Assembly: GCF_013408795.1 (NCBI RefSeq)
Contig: NZ_JACCCC010000001.1
Span: 6,262,001-6,326,000 of the forward strand
Origin: Spinactinospora alkalitolerans
Lineage (GTDB): Bacteria; Actinomycetota; Actinomycetes; Streptosporangiales; Streptosporangiaceae
Length of the DNA stretch: 64,000 nt
Direction of reading: 5' to 3'
A program made the position numbers and the translations under genes. This document shows positions 43,483 to 58,899 of the stretch, one piece after another; positions within the stretch are counted from its first letter, which is position 1, and each line of letters begins with the position of its first letter. Under the pieces are notes generated by a model. That model was not told where the DNA came from. It worked only from the letters and a program-made list of their open reading frames with translations, and did not search any database.

Positions 43483-43848
43483 TCAGTGGGAGCGGCCGCC
43501 GCTCGTGCGGTCCGCGGGCGGGGCCGCGTCGATGATCGCGGGGAAGAGGCCGGGGAATCGCTCCTCGATCTCGTCCCAGCGGAGACGGCTCAGCCGGGAG
43601 GTCCCCTGCAGTCTGGTCGACACCACGCCGCTGTCGCGCAGTATGCGCAGGTGATGGGAGACCGTGGACCGGTTGACGGGAAGCTCCAGAGAGCCGCAGG
43701 AGCCCTCCCCCTTCTCCATGAGAAGGCGGACGATCTGCAGGCGCGTGGGGTCGGCCAGCGCATGGAGCAGAACACCGACGTCAAGGGTCGCGAGGTCCGG
43801 CTGCGGCAGCCAGGTGAACTCCGCACTCGTCTCGGGAAGAGAACTCAC
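43483..43848 (-). CDS. ArsR family regulator at the cluster edge
   Basis: 121-aa winged-helix repressor: LLHALADPTRLQIVRLLMEK, then VNRSTVSHHLRILRDSGVVS and a wing. Two Cys-free helices suggest it does not use the classical ArsR thiol site. It is divergent from the asparagine synthetase gene, and ATCGTAA repeats lie between them, so it may repress itself and the first cluster gene. Confidence 0.82.
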   Translation of the reverse strand: MSSLPETSAEFTWLPQPDLATLDVGVLLHALADPTRLQIVRLLMEKGEGSCGSLELPVNRSTVSHHLRILRDSGVVSTRLQGTSRLSRLRWDEIEERFPGLFPAIIDAAPPADRTSGGRSH

Positions 43849-43890: not shown

Positions 43891-44074
43891 TTATGGACAA
43901 CGATCGTAATTATAGATCACCGTCGTCATAAGAACCGGCGACGGGCCTCCATGCCCGAACGGCTCCCGGCCTCGGTACAGGTCGCCGCCTACCTCGATCG
44001 CGCCCATGGCGGCATGCGCATGGCGACATGGGCGTACCCCCTATGTACGACCATCGACCGTGAGGAAAATTCAC

Positions 44075-45916
44075 ATGTGTGGAATCGCTGGATGGGTGAA
44101 CTTCGATCAGGGCGTCCACGATGAGCGGGACCTCCTCTCCCGCATGACGGAGACCATGGCCTGCCGGGGTCCGGACGCCTCCGGCACCTGGACGGACGTG
44201 CATGTGGCACTCGGCCACCGGCGGCTCTCCGTCATCGACATCGAAGGCGGCCGTCAGCCCATGGCCGCCGAAGAGGGGGGCCGCTCCCTCGCCTGTCTGA
44301 CCTACAGCGGCGAGGTCTACAACTTCCGGGAACTCCGCAAGGAGCTGATCTCCCGCGGGCACAGGTTCCGCACCCGCAGCGACACCGAAGTCGTCCTCCG
44401 CGGGCACCTGGAATGGGGCGAGGGGCTCGTCGACCGCCTGAACGGAATGTTCGCCTATGCCGTCTGGGACGCCGTCCACCAGGAACTGCTCCTGGTCCGC
44501 GACCGGATGGGGATCAAGCCCCTGTACTACTTCCCGCTGGACGATGGGGTGGTGTTCGGCTCGGAGCCCAAGGCGATCCTCCCCCATCCGAACGTTCCGC
44601 GCAGGATCGGGGAGGACGGTCTGCGCGAGGTCCTGGAGATGGTGAAGACTCCCGGGCAGGCGGTCTTCTCCGGAATGTCCGAGGTCCGCCCGGGGGAGAT
44701 CGTGCGGGTGCGGCGCGGCGGGCTGACCAGGCGCACCTACTGGGCCCTTGAGGCCCGCGAGCACGGCGACGACCTGGACACCACCATCGCGACGGTGCGC
44801 TCACTGCTGGAGGACGTCGTCGATCGGCAGCTCGTCGCCGACGTGCCGCTGTGCTCGCTGCTCTCAGGCGGGCTGGATTCGTCGGCGATCACCGCTCTGG
44901 CCGCCAAGGGGCTCGGTGACACCCCCGTACGGTCGTTCTCCGTGGACTTCGCCGACCACGGGACGGGTTTCCGCGGCGACTCGATTCACGGATCGCCCGA
45001 CGCTCCCTTCGCCCGCGACCTCGTGCGGCACGTGGGGGCCGAACACAGCGAGGTCATCCTGAACAGCGGAGAACTCGCCGATCCCGGGCTGCGCGCAGCC
45101 GTCGTCCGGGCCACCGACCTTCCGCCGACGTACTGGGGCGACATGTGGCCGTCGCTGTACCTGCTGTTCCAGGAGATCCGGAAGGAGTCCACGGTGGCCC
45201 TGTCCGGTGAGTCCGCGGACGAGGTCTTCGGGGGCTATCCCTGGTTCCACACCCCTGAGGCCGTGAACGCCTCGACCTTCCCCTGGCTTGCCTCGCCCAC
45301 GAAGGCGCTGTTCGACGGGCAGGGACTGTTCGAGCCGTCCCTCCTGGACAAGCTGGACATGCGGGCCTTCCTGCGCGACAGCTACTCCCAGGCCGTGTCC
45401 GAGGCCCCCGTGCTGCCGGGGGAGAGCCCTCTGGAACGCCGGATGCGGCAGCTCACCTATGTCAACCTGACCCGCTTCAACCAGGCGCTGCTGGACCGCA
45501 AGGACCGCATGAGCATGGCGGTGGGCCTCGAAGTCCGCGTGCCCTTCTGCGACCACCGACTGGTGGACTACGTCTACAGCGTCCCCTGGTCCATGAAGAC
45601 CTTCGACGGGAAGGAGAAGAGCCTGCTGCGCGCCGCGGTCGCAGACCTGCTTCCCGACTCCGTCGTGAAGCGGGTGAAGAGCCCCTACCCGACGACCCAG
45701 GATCCCGGATACGAGCTCGCCCTGCGCGGCGAGATGGCCCGCGTGCTGGAGGACCCCGGTTCACCGGTGGTCCCGCTGCTGGACACCGCGGCGGTGCGGA
45801 CGCTCCTGGAGTCGCCGCTGGGCGACACCAGCCGGAAATACGAGCGGATGGGCCTGGAGACCGTGCTCGGCCTCAACTCGTGGCTGGTCTCATACTCGGT
45901 CGCCCTCGACCTCTGA
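44075..45916 (+). CDS. Asparagine synthetase B-like amidotransferase
   Basis: Glutamine-dependent, ATP-using amide synthetase of 613 aa. Cys2 after the initiator Met (MCGIAGWVNF) is the class II glutaminase nucleophile; the N-terminal domain runs to about 210. The C-terminal synthetase domain has the PP-loop LLSGGLDSSAI and the acidic SGESADEVFGGY. ATG 44075 is certain because Cys2 must follow it; TGAGGAAA precedes it. In antibiotic clusters such enzymes often amidate a pathway carboxylate rather than aspartate. It is the first plus-strand gene of the cluster; the exporter gene follows behind its own operator. Confidence 0.88.
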   Translation: MCGIAGWVNFDQGVHDERDLLSRMTETMACRGPDASGTWTDVHVALGHRRLSVIDIEGGRQPMAAEEGGRSLACLTYSGEVYNFRELRKELISRGHRFRTRSDTEVVLRGHLEWGEGLVDRLNGMFAYAVWDAVHQELLLVRDRMGIKPLYYFPLDDGVVFGSEPKAILPHPNVPRRIGEDGLREVLEMVKTPGQAVFSGMSEVRPGEIVRVRRGGLTRRTYWALEAREHGDDLDTTIATVRSLLEDVVDRQLVADVPLCSLLSGGLDSSAITALAAKGLGDTPVRSFSVDFADHGTGFRGDSIHGSPDAPFARDLVRHVGAEHSEVILNSGELADPGLRAAVVRATDLPPTYWGDMWPSLYLLFQEIRKESTVALSGESADEVFGGYPWFHTPEAVNASTFPWLASPTKALFDGQGLFEPSLLDKLDMRAFLRDSYSQAVSEAPVLPGESPLERRMRQLTYVNLTRFNQALLDRKDRMSMAVGLEVRVPFCDHRLVDYVYSVPWSMKTFDGKEKSLLRAAVADLLPDSVVKRVKSPYPTTQDPGYELALRGEMARVLEDPGSPVVPLLDTAAVRTLLESPLGDTSRKYERMGLETVLGLNSWLVSYSVALDL

Positions 45917-46098: not shown

Positions 46099-47358
46099 AT
46101 GTCCCAGGACCGATCCTCGCCGAGTCCGGCGGCGGCCGACCGGCCGTCGCCGTGGAGCGTCCCTATGCTGGCGTTCGGGACCTTCGCGATCGGCACGTGC
46201 GAATTCGTCCTCGCCGGCCTCCTGCCCCAGTTGGCGGAGTCGCTCGACGTCACGATCCCCACCGCGGGGCAGGTCGTCACCGTGTTCGCGCTGACCTGCG
46301 CGGTTCTGGCCCCCGTGCTGGCCACCTCCACCGCGGGCCGTCCCCGTCGCCAGGTCCTGCTCATCGCGGCTGCGGTCTACTTCGCGGGGAACGTCGGGAC
46401 CGCGCTCTCGCCGTCCTTCCCCGTCCTCCTCGTCACCCAGATGGTGGCGGCGGCGGGAGCCGGCCTCTTCGTCCCCATCGCCTCGGTCACCGCCTCGGCA
46501 CTGGTCCAGCCGGAACGGCGCGGAAGGGCCATCGCCATCGTGACCACGGGGTTGACGGCGGCGACAGCGCTCGGAGCGCCGATCGGCACCGTGCTGGGCG
46601 GACTGCTCGGCTGGCGGGCCGCGATGTTCTTCGTCGCCGCCCTGGCCCTGATCGCCATGCTCGGGATCGTCTCGGTGGTTCCGAAGAAGGTGGACGCTCC
46701 GGCCCCCGAGAGGCTGCGCGAACGGATCGCCCCCCTGGCCGACCGCAGAGTGGTCACCGTCCTGGCGACGACCCTGGTGGCATTCACCGCGGTCTACATC
46801 CCCTACACCTACATCTCGGTCGTGTTCGCGCCCGCCACCGGGGGCAGCAGCGTGCGGCTGGCCGTCCTCATGTCCATCGTCGGAGTCGTCGGCACGCTCG
46901 CCAACTACGTTGCCGGATCACTGGCCGACCGCATCGGCAGCCGTCCCGTGGTCGCGGGCGCGCTCGTCTGGCTGGCCGCCAGCCTGTTCATCATTCCGCT
47001 GGCGACCTCGCTCTACCCCGCCGCCCTGGTCATGGTCTTCCTCTACGGCTTCGCCGCCTTCGCCATCACCACACCGCAACAGCACCGCCTCATCACGCTG
47101 AAGCCGGAGTCGGCATCCGTTCTGATCTCGCTCAACGCCGCCATCCTTTACCTGGGCATCACGATGTCCGGCGTGCTTGGGGCAGCGGGGATCAGCCTCG
47201 TCGGCGCGGGCATGCTGACACTCCTGGCCGGCGGTCTGGCGCTGCTCGCCCTCCTGCTGTCCGAACTGGCACACCGGCTGTCGGCTCGCGGTTCGACGAC
47301 CGCGGAACCGGAGAAAGGGGAGTCCGGCAAGGAGTCCGCGGCCGGCCTGAGCACCTGA
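46099..47358 (+). CDS. MFS exporter (DHA1 family), probable product efflux
   Basis: Twelve-helix membrane transporter (419 aa) using proton exchange. FAIGTCEFVLAGLLPQLAESL is the conserved first helix of the arabinose-efflux/chloramphenicol-resistance group, and VLGGLLGWRAAMFFVAAL is motif C with its following helix. The ATG at 46099 preceded by AGAGAGGA begins a normal short N-terminus; the frame open to 45979 runs into the operator. Located between the asparagine synthetase and the core operon, under a palindromic operator, it is the obvious export or self-resistance gene. Confidence 0.85.
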   Translation: MSQDRSSPSPAAADRPSPWSVPMLAFGTFAIGTCEFVLAGLLPQLAESLDVTIPTAGQVVTVFALTCAVLAPVLATSTAGRPRRQVLLIAAAVYFAGNVGTALSPSFPVLLVTQMVAAAGAGLFVPIASVTASALVQPERRGRAIAIVTTGLTAATALGAPIGTVLGGLLGWRAAMFFVAALALIAMLGIVSVVPKKVDAPAPERLRERIAPLADRRVVTVLATTLVAFTAVYIPYTYISVVFAPATGGSSVRLAVLMSIVGVVGTLANYVAGSLADRIGSRPVVAGALVWLAASLFIIPLATSLYPAALVMVFLYGFAAFAITTPQQHRLITLKPESASVLISLNAAILYLGITMSGVLGAAGISLVGAGMLTLLAGGLALLALLLSELAHRLSARGSTTAEPEKGESGKESAAGLST

Positions 47359-47448: not shown

Positions 47449-47484
47449 AAAGGCCCTTCGATCTCCACAGATCGAAGGGCCTTT
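47449..47484 (+). terminator. Terminator of the MFS gene
   Basis: AAAGGCCCTTCGATCT pairs perfectly with AGATCGAAGGGCCTTT across CCAC and is followed by TT, a textbook terminator about 90 bp after the stop codon. Confidence 0.85.
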
Positions 47485-48054
47485 TCGCGTGTCCGACCGA
47501 AGGCGCCCGCGCATGAATCAGGAGAGCACTTCTTTCACGTACCGTTTTTTGCTCGGAGTACCCCGCAACCTCCGGGCGGGCGCTCGGCGACACGAAGACA
47601 TGCATTCGAGTCGGAAAACAAACGGAACATCCTCCCGCCCTCGGATTGAAGACAGGCCTATCAATCGGCAAAACATTTGGCAGCACGGGCGCAGCTTTTT
47701 GTCAATTACTTGTCCTCATTCGGACCGGCCATCACTCGGCGCGCTCGATATCGGCCGCCTCTTTCCGTCCAAAAATCAGCGCCGATACAACCGATAACCG
47801 CTCTACTGGAAACCCTCCGAAGTCTCGGATAGAAGAACGGAGGCGCCGGCGACCATTGATTACACAGGGTAGTAAATTGCCACAGCACCCCCCTGTCCGG
47901 CCTCAGTCATTTCGGATATAACTGGTTCCGGAATTGACCGGGACTCCGCGACCGCTGCCCGAGGGAGCGAACAGCTCCGGAGCGGGCACGGAATCTCCGG
48001 CAGCCGTGGACTGAAACCGGCGTTTCACTTTCCCAGCTCGGAGGTATTTCTGCT
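47485..48054 (+). promoter_or_regulatory. Promoter region of the core biosynthetic operon
   Basis: 570 bp without a gene, noticeably more AT-rich than the coding DNA on either side. It must contain the promoter for the twelve-gene operon starting at 48055. GGAGG at 48040-48044 is the ribosome binding site of the first gene. I cannot place the -10/-35 elements with confidence. Confidence 0.5.
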
Positions 48055-48981
48055 GTGGTGAGCACCCTGATCGACGAGAACCCTCGTTTCAAGGAGATCA
48101 TCGACAGACTCAATTCGAAGTCGGTCGAGGACTACTACAACCCGTACCGGGTATTCGAATGGCCGGACGAACTTCCTGCAGGAATGTGGTGGATGACCCC
48201 GGAGCTGACCACCACACATGGAAGTGAGATCGCGGACGGCCTCTCGCGGGAGCAGCTCCACGCGCTTTCCCGATACGAGAGCATCAATTTCTACAGCCTC
48301 AATGTCCACGGGATCCGAGAACTCCTGATCGAGGTCACCAAGAGGATCCACACGACGGAATTCGCGACCCCCTCCGAATTCTTCCACCACTTCATCGGCG
48401 AAGAGAATGAGCACATGTGGTTCTTCGCCGAGTTCTGCCTGCGCTACGGCGGGAAAATCTATGCTCAGCCGCGCGGCGGCGCCGAAACCATTCCCCCGAG
48501 CAACGCTGAGAGTCTTCTCGTCTTCGCTCGCATCCTCATCTTCGAGGAACTCGTTGACCATTTCAATTCGAAAATGGCTCTGGACACGAACCTGCACGAA
48601 ACGATCCGGCAAGTCAACCGAATTCACCACCAGGACGAATCCCGGCACATCGCGTTCGGGCGGGAACTGGTCCGGGTCCTTTTCGAGGACTTCCAGAAGC
48701 AGGCGACCGAAGCCGAGATCGGCCAGGTGAGCGACTACCTGAAGCGCTACATCACCTTCAGCTTCGAGTCGCTGTACAACCCGCACGTCTACAGGGACGC
48801 GGGCATCGACAGTCCACTGGACGTCCGCAGGCGGCTTCTTGAGAGTCCCAGGCGCAAGGAGTTCGAGCAGCAGGTGTTCCGTAAGACGCTCTCCTTCCTC
48901 ACCAAGACCGGAATGTTGACCGACCGCGACCTCTCGGACTCCTCCGGGGAGCAGTCGGGGAAGGGAGCCGAACGACGATGA
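48055..48981 (+). CDS. AurF-type di-iron N-oxygenase
   Basis: Predicted amine oxygenase (308 aa) of the AurF/CmlI family (PF11583), which converts amino groups to hydroxylamine, nitroso or nitro groups. The seven metal ligands of AurF have counterparts: Glu75 (SRYESINF), Glu117 and His120 (GEENEHMW), Glu164 (IFEELVDHF), and His191, Glu195 and His198 (IHHQDESRHIAF). The spacing E164 to H191 is 27, as in AurF. It is first in the core operon and overlaps the ligase gene by ATGA, which suggests that the carrier-bound aminoacyl group is the substrate. Starts GTG 48055 or GTG 48058. Confidence 0.82.
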   Translation: MVSTLIDENPRFKEIIDRLNSKSVEDYYNPYRVFEWPDELPAGMWWMTPELTTTHGSEIADGLSREQLHALSRYESINFYSLNVHGIRELLIEVTKRIHTTEFATPSEFFHHFIGEENEHMWFFAEFCLRYGGKIYAQPRGGAETIPPSNAESLLVFARILIFEELVDHFNSKMALDTNLHETIRQVNRIHHQDESRHIAFGRELVRVLFEDFQKQATEAEIGQVSDYLKRYITFSFESLYNPHVYRDAGIDSPLDVRRRLLESPRRKEFEQQVFRKTLSFLTKTGMLTDRDLSDSSGEQSGKGAERR

Positions 48982-49805
48982 ACAAGGTATCCGACGGTCT
49001 GGCGATCCTGGACTCCGACCACACGGAGCTGCTCGACACCCTGGACTCGGTTTTCACCGAGTGGGCACTGAAAGCAGGGGCGAAGAAGATATCTCCGCCT
49101 CCCGTCTACCGAGTCGCACAGCTGGAGAAATTCGACGTCTACGACAACTTCCCGCACTTGGCGCTCGTCGCCGGCCCCTTGAGACCGGCCGACGAATCAC
49201 GGCCCGATGCCCACAGATTCCACCCCGGCAAGCTCGCCGACGCCCATCTCGGCCTCCCCACCGCCACGTGCTTCGGCGCCTATCTCTTCTTCGAGGGAAT
49301 GCGGGTTCCCTCCTCCGCCCTCGTCACTCTCGCCAACCACTGCTTCAGAAACGAAGAGTATTTCGACGGGTTGCGCCGACTGCTCAGCTTCAGGATGCGG
49401 GAAATCGTGGCCCTGGGGACGTATGAGCACACCCGGAACGTCATCGAGGATTTCAAGGCGAGAATCGAGGCGTTCCTCGGGGAACTGGACCTGGATTTCA
49501 CCTCCGAGGCCGCGACAGACCCCTTCTTCGATCGTGAGGGCGGGCGGGCGCTTCTGCAGAGACTGCAGGAGGTGAAGCGCGAGTTCACGGTCGACGGCCT
49601 GGCGATCGCGTCCGTCAACACGCACCGGAACTTCTTCGGTGAGAGGTGCGGCATCACCGTGGAGAACGGTTCGTCGCACGCCTTCACGAGCTGCGTCGCC
49701 TTCGGGCTCGAGCGGTGGGTGAGCGTGCTCGTCGACCGGTACGGTACGGCCGCCAAGGCGGCCGAGGTGGCACGTTCGGCCGCCTTGAACACCGGATCGG
49801 ATTGA
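48978..49805 (+). CDS. Amino acid:[carrier protein] ligase (seryl-tRNA synthetase-like)
   Basis: 275-aa class II synthetase core without a tRNA-binding domain. Such enzymes activate a small amino acid with ATP and load it on a carrier protein. Cys98 (PTATCFGAY), Glu142 (RMREIVALG) and Cys239 (AFTSCVAFGLERW) match the three zinc ligands of the Bradyrhizobium enzymes in spacing; FRNEEYFDGLRRLLSFRMRE is motif 2 and CVAFGLERW is motif 3. Characterised members use Gly or Ala; the specificity here is not known. ACP1 is encoded two genes downstream. Confidence 0.83.
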   Translation: MNKVSDGLAILDSDHTELLDTLDSVFTEWALKAGAKKISPPPVYRVAQLEKFDVYDNFPHLALVAGPLRPADESRPDAHRFHPGKLADAHLGLPTATCFGAYLFFEGMRVPSSALVTLANHCFRNEEYFDGLRRLLSFRMREIVALGTYEHTRNVIEDFKARIEAFLGELDLDFTSEAATDPFFDREGGRALLQRLQEVKREFTVDGLAIASVNTHRNFFGERCGITVENGSSHAFTSCVAFGLERWVSVLVDRYGTAAKAAEVARSAALNTGSD

Positions 49806-50224
49806 TGTCCCAGCGGATCGGCGTCGATCTCGTACCGCTGGCCCGGATCCGCCCCCTGCTCGCCGCCGAACGGCGAGAGGTACTCGAACGGATGCTGCGG
49901 CCGGACGAGATCTCGAACTGCAGGCGCGGGGGGCGGCTCGACGTACCGGCACTGGCCGGCCGTATCGCGGCGAAAGAGGCGGTCTTCAAACTGCTCCGCG
50001 AAGACGGCGTGCCTCTTCCCTGGCTGTCGATCGGGGTCTCGGCCAAGAGCGGAACGTGGCCGAAGGTCGCTCTCGAAGGAGAGGCGCTTTCCCTCGCGCA
50101 GGCATCAGGAATCCAATCCGACATATCGGTGAGCATCTCGCATGACGGGGACTACGCCGTCGCCGCAGCCGTATGCGAAATAGCGGACCCGGTGTACGAG
50201 CCGTCTCCTCCCACGGCGGATTGA
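49805..50224 (+). CDS. AcpS-type phosphopantetheinyl transferase 1
   Basis: 139-aa enzyme that attaches the phosphopantetheine arm to a carrier protein. IGVDLVPLARI has the Mg-binding Asp and AGRIAAKEAVFKLL the second metal and CoA motif; VSISHDGDYAVAAAV is the C-terminal His motif. The ATG overlaps the preceding stop (TGATG). It lies directly before ACP1, which is the likely substrate. Confidence 0.87.
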   Translation: MSQRIGVDLVPLARIRPLLAAERREVLERMLRPDEISNCRRGGRLDVPALAGRIAAKEAVFKLLREDGVPLPWLSIGVSAKSGTWPKVALEGEALSLAQASGIQSDISVSISHDGDYAVAAAVCEIADPVYEPSPPTAD

Positions 50225-50273
50225 CCGCCCGGATGGAACGGACAAGCCCATCCTGTCAAGAAAGAGGGATCAC

Positions 50274-50531
50274 ATGTCCCAGTCCACTGCCGACCAGATC
50301 GACGACGTCAGGAATTGGATTCTGGCCCGGAATCCGGAGCGCGAGAGCCTGGACAACAGCGAGGACCTGGTCGAGAACCGCCTGGTCGACTCGCTGTCGT
50401 TCGTCGAGTTCATCTTCACCATCGAGCAGGCAAGCGGAAAGGAGATCCCGATGGACGACCTCAACCTCGATGACCTGCGGACCCTCGGCAGCATCGAAAA
50501 GGCCTACTTCACCGACTCGCGCCGCTCTTAG
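50274..50531 (+). CDS. Acyl carrier protein 1
   Basis: 85-aa carrier protein. Ser40 in LVDSLSFVEFI is the phosphopantetheine site. The four-helix pattern is normal (DDVRNWILARNPE at the start, DDLRTLGSIEKAYF at the end). Its place between the ligase/PPTase pair and the methyltransferase makes it the probable acceptor of the amino acid activated by the aaRS-like ligase. Confidence 0.88.
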   Translation: MSQSTADQIDDVRNWILARNPERESLDNSEDLVENRLVDSLSFVEFIFTIEQASGKEIPMDDLNLDDLRTLGSIEKAYFTDSRRS

Positions 50532-50558
50532 GCGCGCCGGAAGAGGAGATCGCATTCC

Positions 50559-51413
50559 ATGAAAGAGATCTCATACACCGCCCAGTGGACCGCGGCAGCG
50601 CGGGCGGTCGAAAGCGAACGGACCGGCGACCGGCTCTTCCGGGACGAATACGCGAGAACACTCGCCGCTCCCCGCGGATTCGAACTGCTGAACAAGTACC
50701 GGGGTGCGGCGGTGGCCGATTTCATCGCCGTGCGCACCCGGTACATGGACGACTCGGTGGGGCGGGTGATGGCGGAGGGCTGGATCGACCAGGTCGTCAT
50801 GGTGGCCAGCGGGATGGACACCCGCCCTTATCGGCTGGCCTGGCCGGACCGCACGACCGTCTACGAAGTGGACCACGCCGCGCTACTCGCGGAGAAGCAC
50901 GACCGGCTGAGCGGCCTGTCGGCGCGGCCGAGGGTGCGCACCGTACACGTAGGAGCCGACCTCGCCGAAGAGTGGCGCCCGATGCTCGCGGACGTCGGAT
51001 TCGACGCGGCACGCCCCACCCTCTGGGTCGCCGAAGGACTGCTGTTCTTCCTGACCGAGGAACAGGCGGCGGATCTGCTCTCGGCCCTGGCCAAGGAGTC
51101 CGCCCCCGGAAGCGAACTTGCCGTCGACATGACCAGTGCGTCGCTGCTCGCCCATCCGATGACCCAGCCCTTTCTGCGGGCCCTGCGCGAGGCGGACACG
51201 CCCTGGCTGTTCGGAACCGACGACCCGGTTGGCTTCCTCTCCGGCTGCGGCTGGGCCGTACACGACCTCAAGCAGCCAGGAGAGCCGGGGGCCGGCGAGG
51301 ACCGATGGCCCTACCCGCCGCCTCCGCGGGGGATCGCGAACGCGCCGCGGAACTGGCTGATCAACGCGGCCCTGACCGAAATCTCCTCCCCCCAACAGGA
51401 GGTCCGCCCATGA
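50559..51413 (+). CDS. SAM-dependent O-methyltransferase (LCMT/TIGR00027 type)
   Basis: 284-aa methyltransferase of the leucine carboxyl methyltransferase-like family (PF04072). VVMVASGMDTRPYRLAWP is the SAM-binding loop, VYEVDHAALLAEK the acidic second motif and PTLWVAEGLLFFLTEE the third. Family members methylate carboxylates or other oxygen acids, so ester or O-methyl formation on an intermediate is expected. It overlaps the KAS III start by four bases. Confidence 0.82.
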   Translation: MKEISYTAQWTAAARAVESERTGDRLFRDEYARTLAAPRGFELLNKYRGAAVADFIAVRTRYMDDSVGRVMAEGWIDQVVMVASGMDTRPYRLAWPDRTTVYEVDHAALLAEKHDRLSGLSARPRVRTVHVGADLAEEWRPMLADVGFDAARPTLWVAEGLLFFLTEEQAADLLSALAKESAPGSELAVDMTSASLLAHPMTQPFLRALREADTPWLFGTDDPVGFLSGCGWAVHDLKQPGEPGAGEDRWPYPPPPRGIANAPRNWLINAALTEISSPQQEVRP

Positions 51414-52375
51414 CGGGGACCGCGACCCTGGAACGCGTCGAGTCCTTCCTGCCCGAGCGGCGCGTGGACATCGGCGACCTGGCCGAACGGCTGGGCCTGC
51501 GCACGACAGAGATCGGGGTGTTCCGTAAGATCTACGGCCTCGGCGAACTGCGTTTCGACCCGGACATGGACCTGTTCGACCTGGTCATGCCCGCGGCCCG
51601 CCAAGCGCTCGCCGCGCTCCCGGAGGGCCGACGGATCGACTACGTCGTGTTCGCGCACACCATGCAGACCGTCGCCCCGCCCGATACCGACGCCGCCCAG
51701 GTGATCCGCGACGAGCTCGGCCTGCGGGGCGCCGAGGCGTTCGCACTCAACCAGCAGGCATGTGTGAGCAGCATGGGCGCGATCGATGTCGTGGCCGAGC
51801 TCATGCGCGCCGACATCGGTACCGGGAGTCGCTCACGCCCCGGTTACGCCCTCATGGTGACCGGAGAGCGCGCCTACTCACCGCGGATTCAGTTGATTCC
51901 GCACAGCGCGATCATGGCTGAGGCGGCGGCGGCCTGCCTGATCACCCTCGACGGGCCGGGTGACGCGGTGGTCTCCTACGTTGACCGGACCCATGGCGAG
52001 TTCGCCGCCGGGCTGGAGATGGGCAGCGAGGAGATCCAGCGCTTCGGCCAGGTCTACGCCCCCGAATTCGCCGACGTGATCAGGCAGGCCGTGGCCGAGG
52101 CCGGCCTCGGCCTCTCCGACATCGACCGGATCATTCCGCACAACGTCAACCTGATCTCCTGGCGCCAGGTGATCAAGGAGCTGAAGATCGATCCGGAGCT
52201 GGTGTTCCTGGACAACGTTCCCAGGCTCAGCCACTGCTACTCGTCGGACGTCTTCGTCAACTACACCACCCTGCGCGACGAAGGGCGCCTTGTCGAGGGC
52301 CGCAACTACGTTCTCGCATCCGTCGGCCTCGGCGCCACCTTCGGCGCCATGGTGCTCACCCATTCCGGGAAGTGA
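51410..52375 (+). CDS. KAS III-like condensing enzyme with a Cys-His dyad
   Basis: 321-aa thiolase-fold enzyme. Cys118 (NQQACVSSMGA) and His244 (IIPHNVNLISW) are in the standard FabH positions, but the third residue, normally Asn in a GNTS-like loop, is replaced: the sequence there is SHCYSSDVFVN (274-284). A Cys-His dyad without Asn is known in PqsC of the PqsBC heterodimer. The enzyme could form a C-C bond or transfer an acyl group. A paralogue lacking the Cys is encoded downstream. No acyltransferase or malonyl-loading domain exists in the cluster. The ATG overlaps the methyltransferase stop. Confidence 0.85.
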   Translation: MTGTATLERVESFLPERRVDIGDLAERLGLRTTEIGVFRKIYGLGELRFDPDMDLFDLVMPAARQALAALPEGRRIDYVVFAHTMQTVAPPDTDAAQVIRDELGLRGAEAFALNQQACVSSMGAIDVVAELMRADIGTGSRSRPGYALMVTGERAYSPRIQLIPHSAIMAEAAAACLITLDGPGDAVVSYVDRTHGEFAAGLEMGSEEIQRFGQVYAPEFADVIRQAVAEAGLGLSDIDRIIPHNVNLISWRQVIKELKIDPELVFLDNVPRLSHCYSSDVFVNYTTLRDEGRLVEGRNYVLASVGLGATFGAMVLTHSGK

Positions 52376-52379
52376 TCGC

Positions 52380-53744
52380 ATGGCAGACGCCTCTTACACC
52401 GAAGCCGTGAAGGAAGCCCTGGTCGGCGACCGCGACGCCGAGTTCGTATGGCTGTGCAACTTCGAAGTGGAGCACGAGTGGGCGCGGGGGTTTCCAGGCC
52501 TCCCGTCCGCACAGGCATCGGCCACCGCATCGATCGTTCAGCGCATGGAGGAGTTTGGAGCACTTCTGGCCGCCCCCGGAGATCACCTGCTGCTGGGGTC
52601 GGCCCTCGATCCCGGTTACCGGGCCTACCTCGGCAGGACGGTGTCCCCTCCACCCGGCGAGATCGTCGTCGACGGCGCCGACACCGCCAGGGCCGTGCTC
52701 TCGTCGCCGGCGGCGATCAACCGACTGCGCGCGCTCGCCGACCGGGGCGCCTACCTCATGCCTATGGGGGTCTCCCGGAACGAGGAGGAGATCACCACGG
52801 CGACCGGACTGAAGCTGGCCGCTCCCGACGCGGACACGGCTCAGCGGGTCAACAGCAAGATATACAGCCGAAGACTGGTCGAGGAGCTCGGTCTCCGCGG
52901 CATCCCCGGCCACACCTGCGAAACCGTGGAAGAGCTCCGGAACGCACTGCGGCCGCTCCCGACGCCGGAATCCCCCCTGATCGTCAAGGACGCCTACGGG
53001 ATGTCCGGCAAGGGCCTCCTCGTCCTCGACTCGCCGCGGCGGGCCGAAGGCCTGCTGCGCATGGTCGAACGCCGAGCGCAGCGCACGGGCGACCCGAGTA
53101 TCCATGTCGTCGTCGAGGAGTTCCTGGACAAGCGCTTCGACCTCAACTACCAGTTCACCGTCGACCGCACGGGCCGGGTCCGGCTCGACTTCGTCAAGAG
53201 GGCGCTGACCTCCGGGGGCGTCCACCAAGGGCATGTGATCCCGGCCGGGCTGAGTTGCGGCCACATCGAGGAGATCGGCACCGTCGCCGAGCATCTGGGC
53301 AACCGGCTCTTCGCCGACGGCTTCTTCGGGATCGTCGGCGTGGACGCGCTGCTGAGCGACGACGGCCTCCTCTACCCGGTCCTGGAGATCAACGCCCGGT
53401 TGAACATGTCGAGCTACCAGGGACGGGTCCTGGAAAGGTTCCACCGCCCGCCCGCGGTGGCGCTGGCCAAGCACTACACACTGCGGCTCCGACGCACCGT
53501 CGGATTCGAGGAGGTCCTCCACGAACTCGGGGACCTGGCGGCGCCGCCGACCGGTGGCAGCGGGCTGGTGGTCACGTGCTTCGGGACCCTCAACGCGGCC
53601 CGCGCGGAAATCGAACGCGCCGGCACCCGGGAGGGGCGCCTGTACACGGTGCTGATCGCTCCGGACGACGCCCGGCTCCGGGAACTCGACGGCCGGGTCG
53701 CCGACCGGCTCGGCCGCCTCACGACCAAGGAGGCATCGGTATGA
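52380..53744 (+). CDS. ATP-grasp amino acid:carrier protein ligase (BtrJ-like)
   Basis: 454-aa ATP-grasp enzyme. SPLIVKDAYGMSGKGLLVLD (about 200-219) is the ATP-binding Lys and Gly loop; VVVEEFLDKRFDLNYQFTV and LLYPVLEINARLNMSSYQGR are the second half with Mg-binding Glu and Asn. The order ligase, decarboxylase, ACP matches the BtrJ/BtrK/BtrI set of butirosin synthesis, in which BtrJ links glutamate through its gamma-carboxylate to the carrier. ATG 52380 follows GGGAAG, four bases after the KAS stop; it overlaps the decarboxylase start (ATGA). The substrate amino acid is not certain. Confidence 0.8.
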   Translation: MADASYTEAVKEALVGDRDAEFVWLCNFEVEHEWARGFPGLPSAQASATASIVQRMEEFGALLAAPGDHLLLGSALDPGYRAYLGRTVSPPPGEIVVDGADTARAVLSSPAAINRLRALADRGAYLMPMGVSRNEEEITTATGLKLAAPDADTAQRVNSKIYSRRLVEELGLRGIPGHTCETVEELRNALRPLPTPESPLIVKDAYGMSGKGLLVLDSPRRAEGLLRMVERRAQRTGDPSIHVVVEEFLDKRFDLNYQFTVDRTGRVRLDFVKRALTSGGVHQGHVIPAGLSCGHIEEIGTVAEHLGNRLFADGFFGIVGVDALLSDDGLLYPVLEINARLNMSSYQGRVLERFHRPPAVALAKHYTLRLRRTVGFEEVLHELGDLAAPPTGGSGLVVTCFGTLNAARAEIERAGTREGRLYTVLIAPDDARLRELDGRVADRLGRLTTKEASV

Positions 53745-55063
53745 GCGACGGCGAGTGGCGGGTTCAGGGCGTCTCCGCCTCCGAACTCGCCCGAGAGTTC
53801 GGCACCCCTCTCTTCGTCTACGACTCGGAGGTACTGAAAGCGAGCTACGCGGGCCTGCGCGAACGCCTGCATCCGGCCGTCGACGTACTTCTGTCGCTGA
53901 AGGCCAACCCGAACGTCAGCGTCTGCTCCTACCTGGGGTCCCTCGGAGCGGGGGCGGAAGTCTCCTCGCTGACGGAACTCAACACCGCGCAGTGGGCGGG
54001 CATCCCTCCCGAGCGGACCATCTTCCTCGGCCCGGGAAAGACCCGCCGGGAACTCGAGGCATGCGTCTCCGGCGACCTCCACGCCACGGTGTGCGAGTCC
54101 CTTGAGGAGCTCCTCGTCCTCGAGCGGATCGCCCGGGAGGCCGGCGTCGACGACGTGCCCGTCCTGCTCAGGATCAACCCGGACTTCCACACCAAGGGCT
54201 CGGGACTGGCGATGGGCGGTAAACCCAGGCAGTTCGGCACTGACGTGGAGGTCCTGCGCGGCGCTTCGGGCATGCTGGCCGGACTGCGCCGGGTACGGGT
54301 GCTGGGGTTCCACGTCTACATGGGGACGCGCTTCCTCAAGCACGAGGATCTCGTGCACAACACCGAGCAGATCCTCAGGATCGTCTCGGAGCTCGCGGTG
54401 GAGACGGGGACCTCCCTGGAGACCGTGGACTTCGGGGGCGGGTTCGGCATCGCCTACTTCGACAATGAGAAGGACCTCGACATCGACCTCCTCGTGGCGG
54501 GGATCAACGATGTCGTGCGGTCCTTTCTCAGGGACCACCCCGGGTGCCGGCTCATCACCGAGCTCGGCCGCTACCTGACCGCCCTGTGCGGCACCTACAT
54601 GGTCAGCGCGCTCTATGTGAAGCAGTCCATGGGCGAGCACTTCGTGGTGACCGACGGAGGGACCAACCACCACATGGCGGCGGTCGGAGTGGGCAGCTTC
54701 GTCAAACGCAACTTTCCGATGCGGTCGCTCAGCCGCGGCCGGGACGGCGGAAGCCGGGAGTACACCGTCACCGGACCGCTGTGCACGCCCAACGACGTGC
54801 TGGGCAGACGGGTCCTCCTACCCGCCGTGGAGCCCGGGGACCTGCTCGGTGTCGAGAGGTCGGGCGCCTACGGCCCCACCGCCTCCCCAGGATTGTTCCT
54901 GAGCCACGGCTACCCGAGCGAGGTCCTGGTGCACAACGGGGTTCCGCACCTGGTGCGCACCCGCGACCGCAGCACCGACCTGCTCGTCAAGCAGAGACTG
55001 ATCGATTTCACCGCCGACCCCGAGCAGACGTACGAGTACCGGGAACAGGAGCTTCGCAAATGA
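53741..55063 (+). CDS. PLP-dependent decarboxylase acting on a carrier-bound amino acid (BtrK-like)
   Basis: 440-aa fold-type III decarboxylase of the diaminopimelate/ornithine family. Lys54 in LSLKANPN forms the PLP aldimine; DFGGGFGIAYFD binds the cofactor phosphate; TGPLCTPNDVLG supplies the Cys and Asp of the second active-site half, and RSGAYGPTASPG closes the site. Next to an ATP-grasp ligase and ACP, it probably decarboxylates the aminoacyl-ACP2, for example gamma-glutamyl to 4-aminobutyryl. AAGGAGG precedes the ATG. Confidence 0.86.
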   Translation: MSDGEWRVQGVSASELAREFGTPLFVYDSEVLKASYAGLRERLHPAVDVLLSLKANPNVSVCSYLGSLGAGAEVSSLTELNTAQWAGIPPERTIFLGPGKTRRELEACVSGDLHATVCESLEELLVLERIAREAGVDDVPVLLRINPDFHTKGSGLAMGGKPRQFGTDVEVLRGASGMLAGLRRVRVLGFHVYMGTRFLKHEDLVHNTEQILRIVSELAVETGTSLETVDFGGGFGIAYFDNEKDLDIDLLVAGINDVVRSFLRDHPGCRLITELGRYLTALCGTYMVSALYVKQSMGEHFVVTDGGTNHHMAAVGVGSFVKRNFPMRSLSRGRDGGSREYTVTGPLCTPNDVLGRRVLLPAVEPGDLLGVERSGAYGPTASPGLFLSHGYPSEVLVHNGVPHLVRTRDRSTDLLVKQRLIDFTADPEQTYEYREQELRK

Positions 55064-55332
55064 GCCGCCAGGAGATCATCACCGCCATCACGGCCGCATT
55101 GAGCTCGGTCCTCGAAAGAGAGGTGGAGGGCACGACCGAGGAGACCCGCCTGTTCGACGAGCTGCACCTGGACTCCACCTCCGTTCTGGAGCTGCTGATG
55201 TCCATCGAGGACGGCACGGGGATCGAGGTGGACCCTGAGAACCTGGACATGAACGACTTCGCGTCGGTGGGAACGCTCGCCACCTACCTGCAGTCGCAGG
55301 AAGCGGCGCCCACCGGCGCCGAGCAGGTGTGA
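55060..55332 (+). CDS. Acyl carrier protein 2
   Basis: 90-aa carrier protein with Ser39 in LHLDSTSVLELL as the phosphopantetheine site. It overlaps the decarboxylase stop by four bases, so it is made in step with that enzyme; it is the expected BtrI counterpart. Its sequence is clearly different from ACP1 (acidic helix III, longer C-terminal tail), in line with separate loading enzymes. Confidence 0.88.
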   Translation: MSRQEIITAITAALSSVLEREVEGTTEETRLFDELHLDSTSVLELLMSIEDGTGIEVDPENLDMNDFASVGTLATYLQSQEAAPTGAEQV

Positions 55333-55333
55333 A

Positions 55334-56152
55334 ATGGGGACGACACCCGTACTGCGGTCCGCCTCAGCGGTGGTCTCCCCGGAGAGCGCGCCGCCCTCCG
55401 ACGACACCGCGCTGCTCGAGTACTACCGCGATCTCGTCGAGCCCTTCGGCGGAGTCGTCGACGAGGAAGGCGTTCGCGCCGGAACCCGCGTCGCCCATAG
55501 TGATCTCGTCGATCATCTCGTCGGCCCGCAGGACCGGGAGAGGGCCCCCGGGCTGATCGTCCTCACCCATGCGCTGCCCGACCTGCATCCGTTCACGGCC
55601 GTTGCCCCCTACCTGAACATGCTGCTCGGTGGCACGGCGAGCAGCTTCGGGATCTCCCAGCAAGGGATTTCGGCCCCCTTCACCGCGTTGCGCGTGGTCA
55701 GCGCCTTCCAGCGCGCCGGGCGCTGTGACAGGGCCGTCGTGGCGGTTCTCGAACAGAGCACGCTGCCGACACCGCATCCGGGCGTTCCGGCCGACGGCCT
55801 CATCGACTCCGGGGTACTGCTCGAATTCGGTGCGGGCGAGGGGCCGGGCCTGAACGGCGTGGAGGCGGTCGGCCCGCCCCACTCGCCCGCGTCGAGGCTG
55901 TACGGGATCGCCGCGGCCGACCCGGAGGGCACGCTGCTGGTCGTCGGCCCCTCAGTCGGTGCGGAGGGGGTCGCCGACGCGGCCGGGTGCCATCGAGCCC
56001 GCTCGGACACCTACTGCACCGGTGTCTGGCTGGCCCTCGCCCAGGAGTGGCGATCCTGGGCCGAGCGGTACCGCCGGATCGTGCTGTGCGACACCGACCC
56101 CGTCTCGGGGCGCAGCCACCTCGCGGTGTTCGACTCCCCGGCCCGGAACTGA
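55334..56152 (+). CDS. KAS-like protein lacking the active-site cysteine
   Basis: 272-aa protein with the thiolase-type pattern but no catalytic residues. GISQQGISAPFTALRVVSAF (about 106-125) aligns with ALNQQACVSSMGAIDVVAEL of the neighbouring KAS III; Ile112 stands where that enzyme has its Cys. The C-terminal His-Asn loop is also absent and the protein is about 50 residues shorter. A structural partner role like PqsB or a chain-length factor is the simplest reading. Starts one base after the ACP2 stop. Confidence 0.72.
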   Translation: MGTTPVLRSASAVVSPESAPPSDDTALLEYYRDLVEPFGGVVDEEGVRAGTRVAHSDLVDHLVGPQDRERAPGLIVLTHALPDLHPFTAVAPYLNMLLGGTASSFGISQQGISAPFTALRVVSAFQRAGRCDRAVVAVLEQSTLPTPHPGVPADGLIDSGVLLEFGAGEGPGLNGVEAVGPPHSPASRLYGIAAADPEGTLLVVGPSVGAEGVADAAGCHRARSDTYCTGVWLALAQEWRSWAERYRRIVLCDTDPVSGRSHLAVFDSPARN

Positions 56153-56160
56153 ACGGCCGC

Positions 56161-56640
56161 GTGCGGGTCGGGGTCGATGTGCTGTGCGTCGGTGAGCTGG
56201 ACGGGCTGTTCGAACGTCCGTGGTTTCGCCGGTACGCCTACTCCGCGGAGGAACTGGCCGCCGCCGGGGCGTGGGGCCGGGAGCGCGCCCGTGAGTTCCT
56301 CACCGGCCGCTTCGCCTGCAAGGAGGCCGTGGTGAAGGTACTGCGCTGCGGCTTCTCCGGCGGCGTGGTCCCCAACCAGGTGTCGGTGCTGCGCGACACG
56401 GCCGGCGCTCCGGAGGTCCGGCTGACCGGACACGCCGCCGAGCGCGCCCGGGCCGTCGGGGTCGCGGAGGTCACCGTCTCCATCGCGCACAAACGCGGAC
56501 TGGTCATCGCCGTCGCCGTCGGCCTACCCGCGCGCGCCTCGGGACGGTCGACGGCGCGTCCCGGTGCCGACCCCGCGGCACTCGCCACCGGAATCACCGG
56601 CCGTCTGGACGAACACACATGGAAGCAGAGGAGAGCCTGA
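56161..56640 (+). CDS. AcpS-type phosphopantetheinyl transferase 2
   Basis: 159-aa second PPTase of the operon: VRVGVDVLCVGEL with the metal Asp, then TGRFACKEAVVKVL, and VTVSIAHKRGLVIAVAVG. It has a Ser/Arg/Ala-rich C-terminal tail of about 35 residues not seen in PPTase 1. GTG 56161 is the best start at the edge of the domain, eight bases after the KAS-like stop. It probably serves ACP2. Confidence 0.83.
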   Translation: MRVGVDVLCVGELDGLFERPWFRRYAYSAEELAAAGAWGRERAREFLTGRFACKEAVVKVLRCGFSGGVVPNQVSVLRDTAGAPEVRLTGHAAERARAVGVAEVTVSIAHKRGLVIAVAVGLPARASGRSTARPGADPAALATGITGRLDEHTWKQRRA

Positions 56641-56717
56641 TGAGACCACACGTCGGCGCGGCCCGCCGCGCCGTGGAACCGATCCGGCAGAGCCGCGGAG
56701 AAGGAGGGCGGCGATGA
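56640..56717 (+). CDS. Possible 25-codon coupling peptide
   Basis: ATG 56640 overlaps the PPTase 2 stop and the frame runs to a TGA at 56715-56717 overlapping the thioesterase ATG. The basic peptide (MRPHVGAARRAVEPIRQSRG, then EGGRR) has no homology; it may only pass ribosomes between the two genes. AAGGAGG for the thioesterase lies inside it. Confidence 0.3.
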   Translation: MRPHVGAARRAVEPIRQSRGEGGRR

Positions 56718-57472
56718 CACGGCCGCACGTCCGGAGAACGGAGGATTGGGTGCGTGCCCTTGAGCCGTCGCCGCAGGCCGCGTCCCGGGTGCTGGTCTGC
56801 CCGCACGCGGGCGCGTCCGCCGGTGCGTTCACCGCATTGGCCGGCGGACTCGCCCCCGGCGTCGAACTCCTTGCCGTCCAGTACCCGGGCCGACAGGACC
56901 GGAGGAGCGAACCGGCGGTCCGCGACGTGTCAGTGCTCGCCGAACGGATCGCGGACGAGGTGCGGCCCTGGACCGATCGGCCGATGGCCGTCCTCGGCCA
57001 CAGCATGGGTGCGGCGGTGGCTTTCGAGGTGACCCGCAGGCTGGAGGACGACGGCACGGCCCCCGTCCGGCTGTTCGTCTCCGGCAGGCGCGCCCCGGGG
57101 GCCGGGCTGGGGCTGCCGCCCCCCGAGAGCGACGACGACATCGTCGCCGAACTGCGCAGGACCGACGCCGTCCCGCGGAAGCTGCTGGAGCGCGCCGCCT
57201 ACCGGGAGTCGATCCTTTCGGTGCTCCGCCACGACTTCCATGCGAACGCGACCTACCGGTGCCCGACCGGAACACGGGTGCTCTCGCCCATCACCTTCCT
57301 GCTGTCCGACGAGGACCCCTACGTCGACGGTGAGGGCGCGCAGGGGTGGGCGGACCACACCGAGTCGGACTTGGACGTCGTGCGGTTCCCCGGTGGCCAC
57401 GATTTCCTCCTCACGTCATCCGACGCCGTGATCAGCGAGGTCAGGGCGGGTCTCTCACGCCCCGTCCGCTGA
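56714..57472 (+). CDS. Type II thioesterase
   Basis: 252-aa alpha/beta hydrolase that clears misloaded carrier proteins or releases the product. LVCPHAGASAGAF begins the fold, AVLGHSMGAAVAFE is the nucleophile elbow, and the Asp (LLSDEDPYVDG) and His (FPGGHDFLL) complete the triad. AAGGAGG is nine bases upstream of the ATG. It is the last gene of the core operon. Confidence 0.9.
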   Translation: MTRPHVRRTEDWVRALEPSPQAASRVLVCPHAGASAGAFTALAGGLAPGVELLAVQYPGRQDRRSEPAVRDVSVLAERIADEVRPWTDRPMAVLGHSMGAAVAFEVTRRLEDDGTAPVRLFVSGRRAPGAGLGLPPPESDDDIVAELRRTDAVPRKLLERAAYRESILSVLRHDFHANATYRCPTGTRVLSPITFLLSDEDPYVDGEGAQGWADHTESDLDVVRFPGGHDFLLTSSDAVISEVRAGLSRPVR

Positions 57473-57664: not shown

Positions 57665-58327
57665 TCAGGATCCCGGCCGGCCCGGATCCCGGTCCCCGAT
57701 GCCCTCCAACCTCCGCCGCAGCGCCCGGACCTCGAGCTCCAGTTCCCGGTTCTCCCTCTTCAAGGCCTGCATCCTCTCGGCCACGGGGGCCAGGTCCCTC
57801 TCGGTGAACCGCCGTGGGATGTGCTGGGTACAGTTCCAGCTGTAGGCCTCGACGCTGACGATCACGACCCGCTCGACGCGGCCGTCGGTGCGCCTGGAAT
57901 CCACACGTCGCCGCAGCTCGAGGTCCGCGTCCAGGTCCTGCGTACAGGCGTGGCCGAAGACCTTGAGCCGTGCTTGGGCCGGATAGTCCATGAAGAACAG
58001 CGCAGTCCGGTCGCTGGCGCTGATGTTCCCGTTGCTGATGTACTGGCGGTTGCCGCGCACATCCGCGTAGGCGATCGTGCGCTCGTCGATGACGTGCACG
58101 AACCCGGACGGCCCTCCTCGGAACTGCACGTAGGGCCAGCCCGTCTCGCCCACGGTCGCGATGTAGAAGCCGTCGCGGCCGGTGATGAACTCGGCCTCAT
58201 CGGGGCCGAGCGCGTCGGGGCCGTCGTCGCCCCCGTCCGCCAGGCGCCCGCCTGCCCGGCGGCTCCCCTGCTCCTCCTGAAACCGCCGCACGGATTCCGT
58301 GAACGCGACCTGAGCGTAGCGTCTCAT
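57665..58327 (-). CDS. Pyridoxamine 5'-phosphate oxidase-like flavin protein
   Basis: 220-aa protein with a split-barrel flavin fold (FITGRDGFYIATVGETGWPYVQ, then TIAYADVRGNRQYISNGNIS and RTALFFMDYP). The last 50 residues form a coiled coil (ERMQALKRENRELELEVRALRRRLEG). Such proteins often detoxify reactive compounds with FMN or F420. The start overlaps the TetR stop by four bases, so it is the second gene of a TetR-led operon and may respond to the same ligand. It is convergent with the biosynthetic operon. Confidence 0.8.
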   Translation of the reverse strand: MRRYAQVAFTESVRRFQEEQGSRRAGGRLADGGDDGPDALGPDEAEFITGRDGFYIATVGETGWPYVQFRGGPSGFVHVIDERTIAYADVRGNRQYISNGNISASDRTALFFMDYPAQARLKVFGHACTQDLDADLELRRRVDSRRTDGRVERVVIVSVEAYSWNCTQHIPRRFTERDLAPVAERMQALKRENRELELEVRALRRRLEGIGDRDPGRPGS

Positions 58328-58899
58328 CCGACCTTCGCCCCTCTGCTTCCCTCGCGGGGTCGATCAAGCAGGCTCTGCGCCATGGCCCTGGCGTGCTGCG
58401 CCGCGGCCGAACCCTGCTCGCGGAGCGCGGTCACTGTGGCCCCGTCAATGAGCAGCATGAAGCGCTCGGCGATCCTCTGGTGGTCCTCGTGGCCCGCCTC
58501 GGCCAGCAGACCGTCCAGATAGGCGATCACGGACCGCTTGTGCTCGGCCGCCACCCGGAACGCGGGGGAGTCCGGGTCGGCCGCCTCCACCATCGCATTG
58601 ACGGAGGCGCAGCCGCGGAAGTCCGGGGAGGCGAACTGCTCGCCCAACGCGTCGAAGGCGGCGAGCGGGTCCCCGCCCTGTGCCGTCACGACCTCCTCCA
58701 GCCAGGCGCGCCAGCGCGTGTCGTACCTCTTGAGGATCGCGACCACCAGCTCCTCCTTGCCGGCGAAGTGGCGGTAGAAGGAGGCCCGACCCACACCGGA
58801 GACGGACAGCAGCCGGTCCACCCCGACGGCCTGGATCCCCTCCCTGTAGAAGAGGTCTTCGGCGGCGGACATCAGACGCTCTCGAGCGTGAGTCGGCAT
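58324..58899 (-). CDS. TetR family regulator, probable controller of the exporter
   Basis: 191-aa repressor. Residues 5-55 are the DNA-binding domain (RLMSAAEDLFYREGIQAVGV, then SVSGVGRASFYRHFAGKEEL). The C-terminal domain is of the YcdC/TetR_C_11 kind. ACGGTACC half-sites stand both upstream of this gene and in the 26-bp palindrome of the MFS gene 12.9 kb away, so control of both is proposed. It is co-transcribed with the flavin-protein gene. Confidence 0.82.
   Translation of the reverse strand: MPTHARERLMSAAEDLFYREGIQAVGVDRLLSVSGVGRASFYRHFAGKEELVVAILKRYDTRWRAWLEEVVTAQGGDPLAAFDALGEQFASPDFRGCASVNAMVEAADPDSPAFRVAAEHKRSVIAYLDGLLAEAGHEDHQRIAERFMLLIDGATVTALREQGSAAAQHARAMAQSLLDRPREGSRGAKVG

Follow-up and report, generated by a model that had tools for sequence, protein, structure and literature searches.

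A group of twelve tightly packed genes was analyzed in a 64,000-nucleotide stretch of the genome of Spinactinospora alkalitolerans (contig NZ_JACCCC010000001.1, positions 6,262,001 to 6,326,000; referred to here as the window, with coordinates counted from its first letter). The genes, labelled A to L, occupy 48055-57472, and every open reading frame was found where the initial annotation had placed it, on the forward strand with short gaps between neighbors. The families proposed there, including AurF, an aminoacyl-tRNA synthetase (aaRS)-like ligase, acyl carrier proteins (ACPs), phosphopantetheinyl transferases (PPTases) and a pair of ketoacyl-ACP synthase III (KAS III) proteins, are mostly supported by Pfam or NCBIfam. 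The exception is J, which has no match in either database and is assigned by its predicted fold. It is very likely that the cluster encodes an O-methyl nitronate antibiotic of the enteromycin type, built by two modules. The predicted products of the twelve genes are as follows.

48055..48981, forward strand: A, AurF-type diiron N-oxygenase (PF11583, 3.9e-32)
48978..49805, forward strand: B, aaRS-like amino acid:[carrier protein] ligase (NF005479, 1.5e-32, below the cut-off)
49805..50224, forward strand: C, AcpS-type PPTase of the A-E cassette (PF01648, 1.2e-09)
50274..50531, forward strand: D, ACP1 (PF00550, 1.3e-05)
50559..51413, forward strand: E, LCM/TIGR00027 S-adenosylmethionine (SAM) methyltransferase (PF04072, 1e-45; TIGR00027, 2.2e-61)
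51410..52375, forward strand: F, KAS III-like acyltransferase (PF08541, ACP_syn_III_C, 1e-15)
52380..53744, forward strand: G, ATP-grasp ligase (PF18604, PreAtp-grasp, 2.7e-11; PF02655)
53741..55063, forward strand: H, BtrK-like pyridoxal phosphate (PLP) decarboxylase (Orn_Arg_deC)
55060..55332, forward strand: I, ACP2 (PF00550, 3.5e-09)
55334..56152, forward strand: J, degenerate KAS III partner (fold prediction)
56161..56640, forward strand: K, AcpS-type PPTase of the F-J module (PF01648, 9.1e-12)
56714..57472, forward strand: L, type II thioesterase (PF00975, 9.9e-42)

From A to L, the gaps at successive junctions are -4, -1, 49, 27, -4, 4, -4, -4, 1, 8, and 73 bases. Eight of the eleven junctions overlap or fall within 10 bases, the remaining three being 27, 49, and 73. 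These overlaps and spacings, which are the whole basis for the assignment, suggest that 48055-57472 may be a single operon. A scan for promoters and terminators was uninformative on transcripts, with 0 promoter-like sites and 2 terminator-like sites compared to 5.9 in shuffled sequences. In Amycolatopsis coloradensis (locus L027), A, B, D, and E lie on the opposite strand from F-K, so the two modules are not necessarily one transcript everywhere. As the extent of the whole cluster, the range 48055-57472 proved too narrow, since several flanking genes are conserved together with the operon. The flanking genes are as follows.

43483..43848, reverse strand: small regulator, ArsR-like by eye (121 aa; from our own gene call; membership uncertain)
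44066..45916, forward strand: AsnB-like amidotransferase (PF00733, 6.2e-95; GATase_7)
46099..47358, forward strand: major facilitator superfamily (MFS) exporter (PF07690, 1.2e-40)
57665..58327, reverse strand: PNPOx-like flavin split-barrel protein, cluster-associated (PF01243, 1.8e-08)
58324..58899, reverse strand: TetR regulator (PF00440, 7.1e-12)

DNA blocks carrying AsnB, the MFS exporter, the PNPOx-like protein, and TetR are conserved in Nocardiopsis potens (L018), S. inusitatus (L023), and A. coloradensis. Because this holds even in L023 and L027, where the order of the blocks shared with the window is rearranged, the four genes are regarded as members of the cluster. The MFS protein is 64-79% identical in these three loci, TetR is 58-66% identical in them and in L019, and the PNPOx-like gene is found within related clusters or on their borders. 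The thioesterase block is common to the window, L018, and L027 only, and a blastn block at 43515-43973, in the region of the small regulator, is common to the window and N. potens only. The cluster would thus extend from about 44.1 to 58.9 kb, perhaps starting at 43.5 kb. The G+C content is 67.4% in 44066-57472 and 70.7% in the rest of the window. Judged from its sequence, the cluster is real, functional-looking, and well conserved.

The pathway proposed here takes its reactions, substrates, and order by analogy from published counterparts. In the first module, C would activate ACP1, B would charge it with glycine, A would oxidize the amine of glycyl-ACP1 to a nitroacetyl or nitronate group, and E would methylate the nitronate oxygen. 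In the second module, K would activate ACP2, G would load aspartate onto it through the side-chain carboxyl, and H would strip off the alpha-carboxylate to give beta-alanyl-ACP2. The O-methylnitronoacetyl group would then move from ACP1 to Cys118 of F, within the F/J pair, and be passed to the free amine of beta-alanyl-ACP2 to form an amide. After release of the chain by hydrolysis, through L or another hydrolase, AsnB would convert the acid to a carboxamide and the MFS protein would export the product. Enteromycin, CH3O-N(O)=CH-CO-NH-CH=CH-COOH, consists of an O-methylnitronoacetyl group on dehydro-beta-alanine, and the scheme is likely a gene-level account of both halves of this scaffold. 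It also bears out in outline the initial annotation, which joined an N-oxygenated amino acid on ACP1 to a decarboxylated amino acid on ACP2. The accompanying remark that no described pathway with this combination was known does not hold for the first half at least. The first half has been published for enteromycin carboxamide, and the second half has counterparts in the bolagladin and AFC-BC11 pathways. By these analogies, the pathway is not of an undescribed kind but joins two modules with published counterparts. A partial literature search found no statement crediting genes of this sort with the second half of enteromycin.

The occurrence of the same gene set in other genomes supports this assignment. 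A scan of genome contigs with an alignment of F yielded 273 encoding stretches, of which the best 80 were kept and counted as 79 loci, 73 of them from actinobacteria. Among these kept loci, gene calling found F in 77, J in 70, I in 64, H in 63, and G in 62, with all five in 52; an acyl-CoA dehydrogenase family occurred in 50 and a small partner family in 48. Such counts are lower bounds because the caller, which uses third-position G+C, misses genes in low-GC loci; in five of these (L050, L059, L084, L088, and L092), tblastn found G in every case. All of A-K were present in 7 of the 79 kept loci (L018-L023 and L031), while the smaller set of A, D, E, F, I, and J was complete in 11. The recurrence of A-K indicates that the gene set is not a chance neighborhood. 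Orthologous clusters are present in S. albireticuli NRRL B1670, S. eurocidicus, Kitasatospora, and Saccharothrix. The clusters of the S. albireticuli/S. eurocidicus type (L022, L020, L019, L021, and L031) share the A-K order with the window and have an MFS gene and a type II thioesterase nearby, but they contain a dehydrogenase pair and, within the 17-21 kb that were examined, lack AsnB, whereas the window has AsnB and no such pair. In S. albireticuli NRRL B1670, the cluster comprises A-K and the dehydrogenase pair, which matches what the structure of enteromycin demands. We take this species to be the enteromycin producer; a partial literature search found no statement to that effect in print.

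The enteromycin carboxamide pathway of S. achromogenes var. streptozoticus NRRL 3125, likened to the window through its description in citing papers, has a diiron oxygenase in common with it and probably also carrier-bound glycine, a nitronate, and an O-methyltransferase for the latter, and the AsnB of the window fits a carboxamide. The difference is that the window is without the acyl-CoA dehydrogenase pair for the C=C bond. This pair is located between J and K in nine clusters (L019-L022, L031, and L173-L176, the last four examined as 20 kb windows alone). With the L019 copy as the query, which was tested with Pfam and is 77% identical to the S. albireticuli copy, one close copy was found in each of the five dehydrogenase-bearing genomes searched, always in the cluster (77-90%; the query itself in L019). 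In contrast, there was no match in the 64-kb window, and the best of 20 matches in the window's own genome was only 34% identical. The genomes of N. potens and S. inusitatus gave no match at E <= 1e-25, and the best in A. coloradensis was 39% identical over part of the protein only.

The distribution of AsnB is the reverse. The window protein is 72-82% identical to the cluster copies in L018, L023, and L027, compared to 38% for the other AsnB-like gene of its own genome; outside these clusters, no copy in the nine genomes searched exceeded 63%. AsnB of this type was not found in the five dehydrogenase-bearing genomes, where the best copies are 59-63% identical, and in four of the five there was no AsnB match on the cluster contig. 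In L019, the nearest good match (58%) lies about 260 kb off, and a 34% partial match lies about 36 kb from the locus edge. The AsnB-bearing clusters were not monophyletic in three FastTree trees. AsnB probably makes the carboxamide, and because the S. albireticuli-type desaturase has no close homologue, a saturated product is predicted. This would be O-methylnitronoacetyl-beta-alaninamide (C6H11N3O4, [M+H]+ 190.0822), which is enteromycin carboxamide in its dihydro form and offers a defined mass to search for.

Tentatively, and with a chance that we put somewhat short of even, the window and the clusters of N. potens, S. inusitatus, and A. coloradensis constitute a desaturase-free form that makes saturated O-methylnitronoacetyl-beta-alaninamides. 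The amide would be formed by a heterodimeric F/J synthase without a polyketide synthase (PKS) or non-ribosomal peptide synthetase (NRPS), and the O-methylnitronate and beta-alanine cartridges would have been recombined across actinobacteria. No report of this subclass was met in a partial literature search. A saturated product is called into question by the C=C bond of enteromycin carboxamide, from which it follows that amidation and desaturation can coexist. The absence of the dehydrogenase pair from the AsnB-bearing clusters therefore implies either a saturated analogue or another desaturating enzyme. In the second case, the product would be enteromycin carboxamide itself, desaturated by, for instance, a flavoprotein encoded nearby or in trans, and this has a respectable minority chance of being correct. 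It would yield a known product, the PNPOx-like flavoprotein travels with the cluster, and the genome holds the 20 weaker dehydrogenase matches, albeit none closer than the 34% noted above. However, the PNPOx-like gene also occurs in the dehydrogenase-bearing clusters L021, L031, L174, and L175, and its presence alongside the pair makes it unlike a substitute desaturase.

Whichever form the product takes, its amide bond is attributed to F and J. Residues C118, H244, H275, and D280 of F are kept in 82 of 82 sequences, and F possesses a Cys-His-Asp triad of the CerJ/ChlB3 type, with the His and Asp five residues apart. The corresponding residues of ChlB3 are Cys113, His296, and Asp301 (PMC9573744). 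The invariant C118, H275, and D280, with the His/Asp spacing of ChlB3, favor acyl transfer over decarboxylative condensation. A normal KAS III forming C-C bonds is less likely, given that the Asn column of FabH is His in F and is followed by an invariant Asp. F is thus a predicted amide synthase, and the F/J pair probably makes an amide rather than a C-C bond. The AlphaFold model of J, built from an alignment of 40 sequences (39 homologues), has a pLDDT of 94.5. Its best Foldseek match is FabH (8.7e-11), and it aligns with ChlB3 (VIA-align Z 20.4, rmsd 5.3, 240 residues aligned) and AbyA1 (Z 20.2, rmsd 3.3, 233 aligned). In a profile search, a stretch of its N-terminal half was also matched with FabH. 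The column of the catalytic Cys is occupied by Ser113 in the window and by Ala in 38 of 72 sequences, and Cys is not among the five commonest residues. With a KAS III fold but no Cys in this column, J is probably a non-catalytic partner.

The closest counterparts of this module lie in the pathways for bolagladin and AFC-BC11. In the bolagladin proposal, Asp that BolO has attached to BolC by its side chain loses a carboxyl group to the BtrK-like BolN, is acylated on its amine by a KAS III homologue, and receives its double bond from BolQ; a bolN mutant made no bolagladin, and a mutant of the dehydrogenase bolQ released beta-alanine (dihydro) products (PMC7756342). For AFC-BC11, AfcP was shown in vitro to decarboxylate Asp carried by an ACP, and peptide transfer involves AfcL, a KAS III-like acyltransferase with Cys, His, and Asp (PMC12186527). 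These systems share with the window a BtrK-like or PLP decarboxylase with a free-standing ACP, KAS III-like enzymes, and, as predicted here, an acylated beta-alanyl-ACP. They differ in that a VinN-like adenylating enzyme loads Asp in place of the ATP-grasp G, the donor is a fatty acyl rather than the predicted O-methylnitronoacetyl group, and the window gave no dehydrogenase match. The title of Zhang 2022 names autucedine "dihydro-beta-alanine synthetases".

Several observations tell against amide formation by F/J. The role of the KAS III homologue in bolagladin is only proposed, and BolM and BolP have Ser/Thr at the position of the catalytic Cys (PMC7756342), where F has Cys. In AFC-BC11, the FAAL, and not the KAS III-like enzyme, adds the fatty acyl group to beta-alanyl-ACP (PMC12186527). 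In addition, eight clusters (L026, L180, L182, L184-L187, and L189) contain A-E with F, I, and J but without a match to G or H, which suggests a different amine acceptor, so that F/J may also serve another one. In each of the eight, a match to a condensation domain also falls within the 20 kb that holds the cluster. An alternative is that F/J hands the acyl group of ACP1 to the ACP2 thiol, in the way that ChlB3 transfers between ChlB1 and ChlB2, and that another enzyme makes the amide. Both the ChlB3 triad of F and the eight clusters would fit such a thiol transfer, but the single condensation-domain protein used as a query found no match in the window, and G and H are there to put an amine on ACP2, so we consider it unlikely. 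If the F/J pair does join two carrier-bound units, it would represent a widely recurring route to amide bonds that is free of condensation domains.

The amine on ACP2 is predicted to be supplied by G and H. H is a BtrK/DapDC-type decarboxylase by its family matches, its best PDB matches are BtrK (2j66) and 7ru7 (1.7e-87), and its K54 and C348 are kept in 60 of 60 sequences. H would decarboxylate an ACP2-bound substrate, and G is a predicted Asp(beta-carboxyl):ACP2 ligase. The side chain of butirosin is made from Glu via 4-aminobutyrate by BtrJ, BtrK, and BtrI, with a different downstream transfer; an ATP-grasp ligase, a decarboxylase, and an ACP are common to that system and the window. Of the initial annotation, the decarboxylated amino acid on ACP2 is retained, but its example, 4-aminobutyrate, is not, and beta-alanine appears likelier. 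An N-oxygenated amino acid joined to 4-aminobutyrate from Glu would agree with BtrK, named a glutamyl-[BtrI ACP] decarboxylase, being the best solved relative of H. However, H, G, and I are orthologous (71, 61, and 59% identical) to those of the enteromycin-species cluster L022, where the product contains a three-carbon amino acid, and the bolagladin and AFC-BC11 counterparts use Asp. A butirosin-like route is therefore improbable. A cispentacin-type pathway, raised by a weak ACP match to AmcB far under the cut-off, was rejected because the other genes do not fit.

The predicted loading enzymes seem to be replaced in some loci. An AMP-binding family (f7) is present in all six loci having H without G, compared to 33 of the 73 others. 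In Telmatospirillum siberiense, a proteobacterium, the locus (L025, 5.8-14.8 kb) has an AMP-binding enzyme in place of the missing B, beside an AurF that is 34% identical. Both swaps fit, without proving, the assignment of G and B as carrier-loading enzymes. More broadly, the F-J module occurs without module 1 and beside AMP-binding ligases. In the 68 kept loci without A, family f7 is found in 38, an extra ACP in 21, and large acyl-CoA dehydrogenases in 19 (one protein of each family was tested with Pfam, two for f7). We infer that in these loci a different acyl donor is delivered to the same F-J module. In L083 and L094 (4-17 kb each), a B-like ligase, 33-34% identical, lies on the strand opposite an F-G-H-I-J-dehydrogenase module; no AurF match was found in these modules. 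A search of plasmids with F gave 12 matches among 72,556 records, all below 60% identity.

The first module also has published precedent. Towards enteromycin carboxamide, glycine on a carrier protein is converted by a diiron oxygenase to a nitronate, which is then O-methylated (He & Ryan 2021, Nat. Chem. 13:599, cited in PMC9967187, PMC11035981, and PMC12183544). In A, residues E117, H120, E164, H191, E195, and H198 are among those kept in at least 90% of 12 sequences. Their roles as metal ligands are assigned provisionally by spacing relative to the ligands of Dob3 (PMC12154687), with the first Glu ligand unplaced. By analogy with the published pathway, the substrate of A would be glycyl-ACP, its product the nitronate, and the amino acid of B glycine. 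B is class II aaRS-like, with 3mey as its best PDB match (4e-25), and falls below both curated cut-offs. Its score of 112.8 is far under the NCBIfam cut-off of 357, which weakens the case for glycine. C98, E126, and C239 of B are kept in 13 of 13 sequences, and we take them to be the Cys/Glu/Cys zinc positions of the aaRS-like amino acid:[carrier protein] ligases. The ACP serine is kept in 77 of 77 aligned ACPs, and E is a predicted nitronate O-methyltransferase.

Module 1 also occurs in the absence of module 2. The initial description of two separate carrier-loading systems appears sound, and each half is found without the other. Among the 297 genomes of the family, 9 encode an AurF of the window clade (E <= 1e-60), and among the 394 of the class, 21 encode a homologue of B (E <= 1e-20), with the window's own genome counted in both cases. 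A-D-B, with or without C and E, is also found beside a nitronate monooxygenase (NMO) or a PKS. Family f4, one protein of which was identified with Pfam as NMO (PF03060, 7.5e-37), adjoins A-D-B in 8 of 22 fetched neighborhoods. NMO can alternatively release nitrite from the nitronate (PMC9967187, PMC11035981, and PMC12183544). That the window encodes a nitrite-releasing (denitrification) cassette like those the NMO-family neighbors might suggest, rather than an antibiotic pathway, is highly improbable given its methyltransferase, its F-K genes, and the lack of a match in the 64 kb to the one NMO protein tried.

In L105, A-E accompany an A-PCP protein and a KS-AT-KR-ACP PKS; C travels with A-E there, and F-J give no match. 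This layout resembles the akazaoxime/A-76356 cluster, in which an NRPS loads glycine and an NRPS and PKS add leucine and propionate (PMC9967187). That cluster likewise has a diiron oxygenase and a nitronate O-methyltransferase acting on carrier-bound glycine but, in the parts of the source available, no mention of an F-J module (PMC9967187). The glycine-nitronate cassette is thus found with at least three different partners: the F-J module, PKS/NRPS, and NMO.

Methyltransferases like E (E <= 1e-70) occur in 50 of 392 Streptomyces genomes. In 20 kb windows, 20 places from 18 of these 50 genomes were examined. Four are of the S. albireticuli type, seven have A-E with F, I, and J but no match to G or H, eight have at least A, B, D, and E but no match to F, and one (L178) has E alone. 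L132 and L180, apparently one place found by two routes, were counted once, and L024 is cut by a contig end. In L175, of the S. albireticuli type, there was no match to A, and the match to B starts only about 0.4 kb before C; this cluster may have decayed.

Some neighborhoods contain other combinations of these genes. In L134, L138, and L139, A-D-B adjoins two families, one matching Porphyromonas-type peptidyl-arginine deiminase (as tested in L134) and the other with a condensation domain (as tested in L138). In L142, L143, L145, and L146, D-like ACPs and a B-like ligase occur without an AurF match, next to a family that weakly resembles PPTases and another three or four gene families common to these loci; the aaRS-like ligase may serve a further purpose there. 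The window's genome also holds a second AurF-like gene, which is only distantly related (24% identical; C1:4951131-4951952, L002). Finally, one or both genes of the PNPOx-like and TetR pair (57665-58899) accompany enteromycin-type clusters in several genera, where they perhaps provide self-protection against nitronates.

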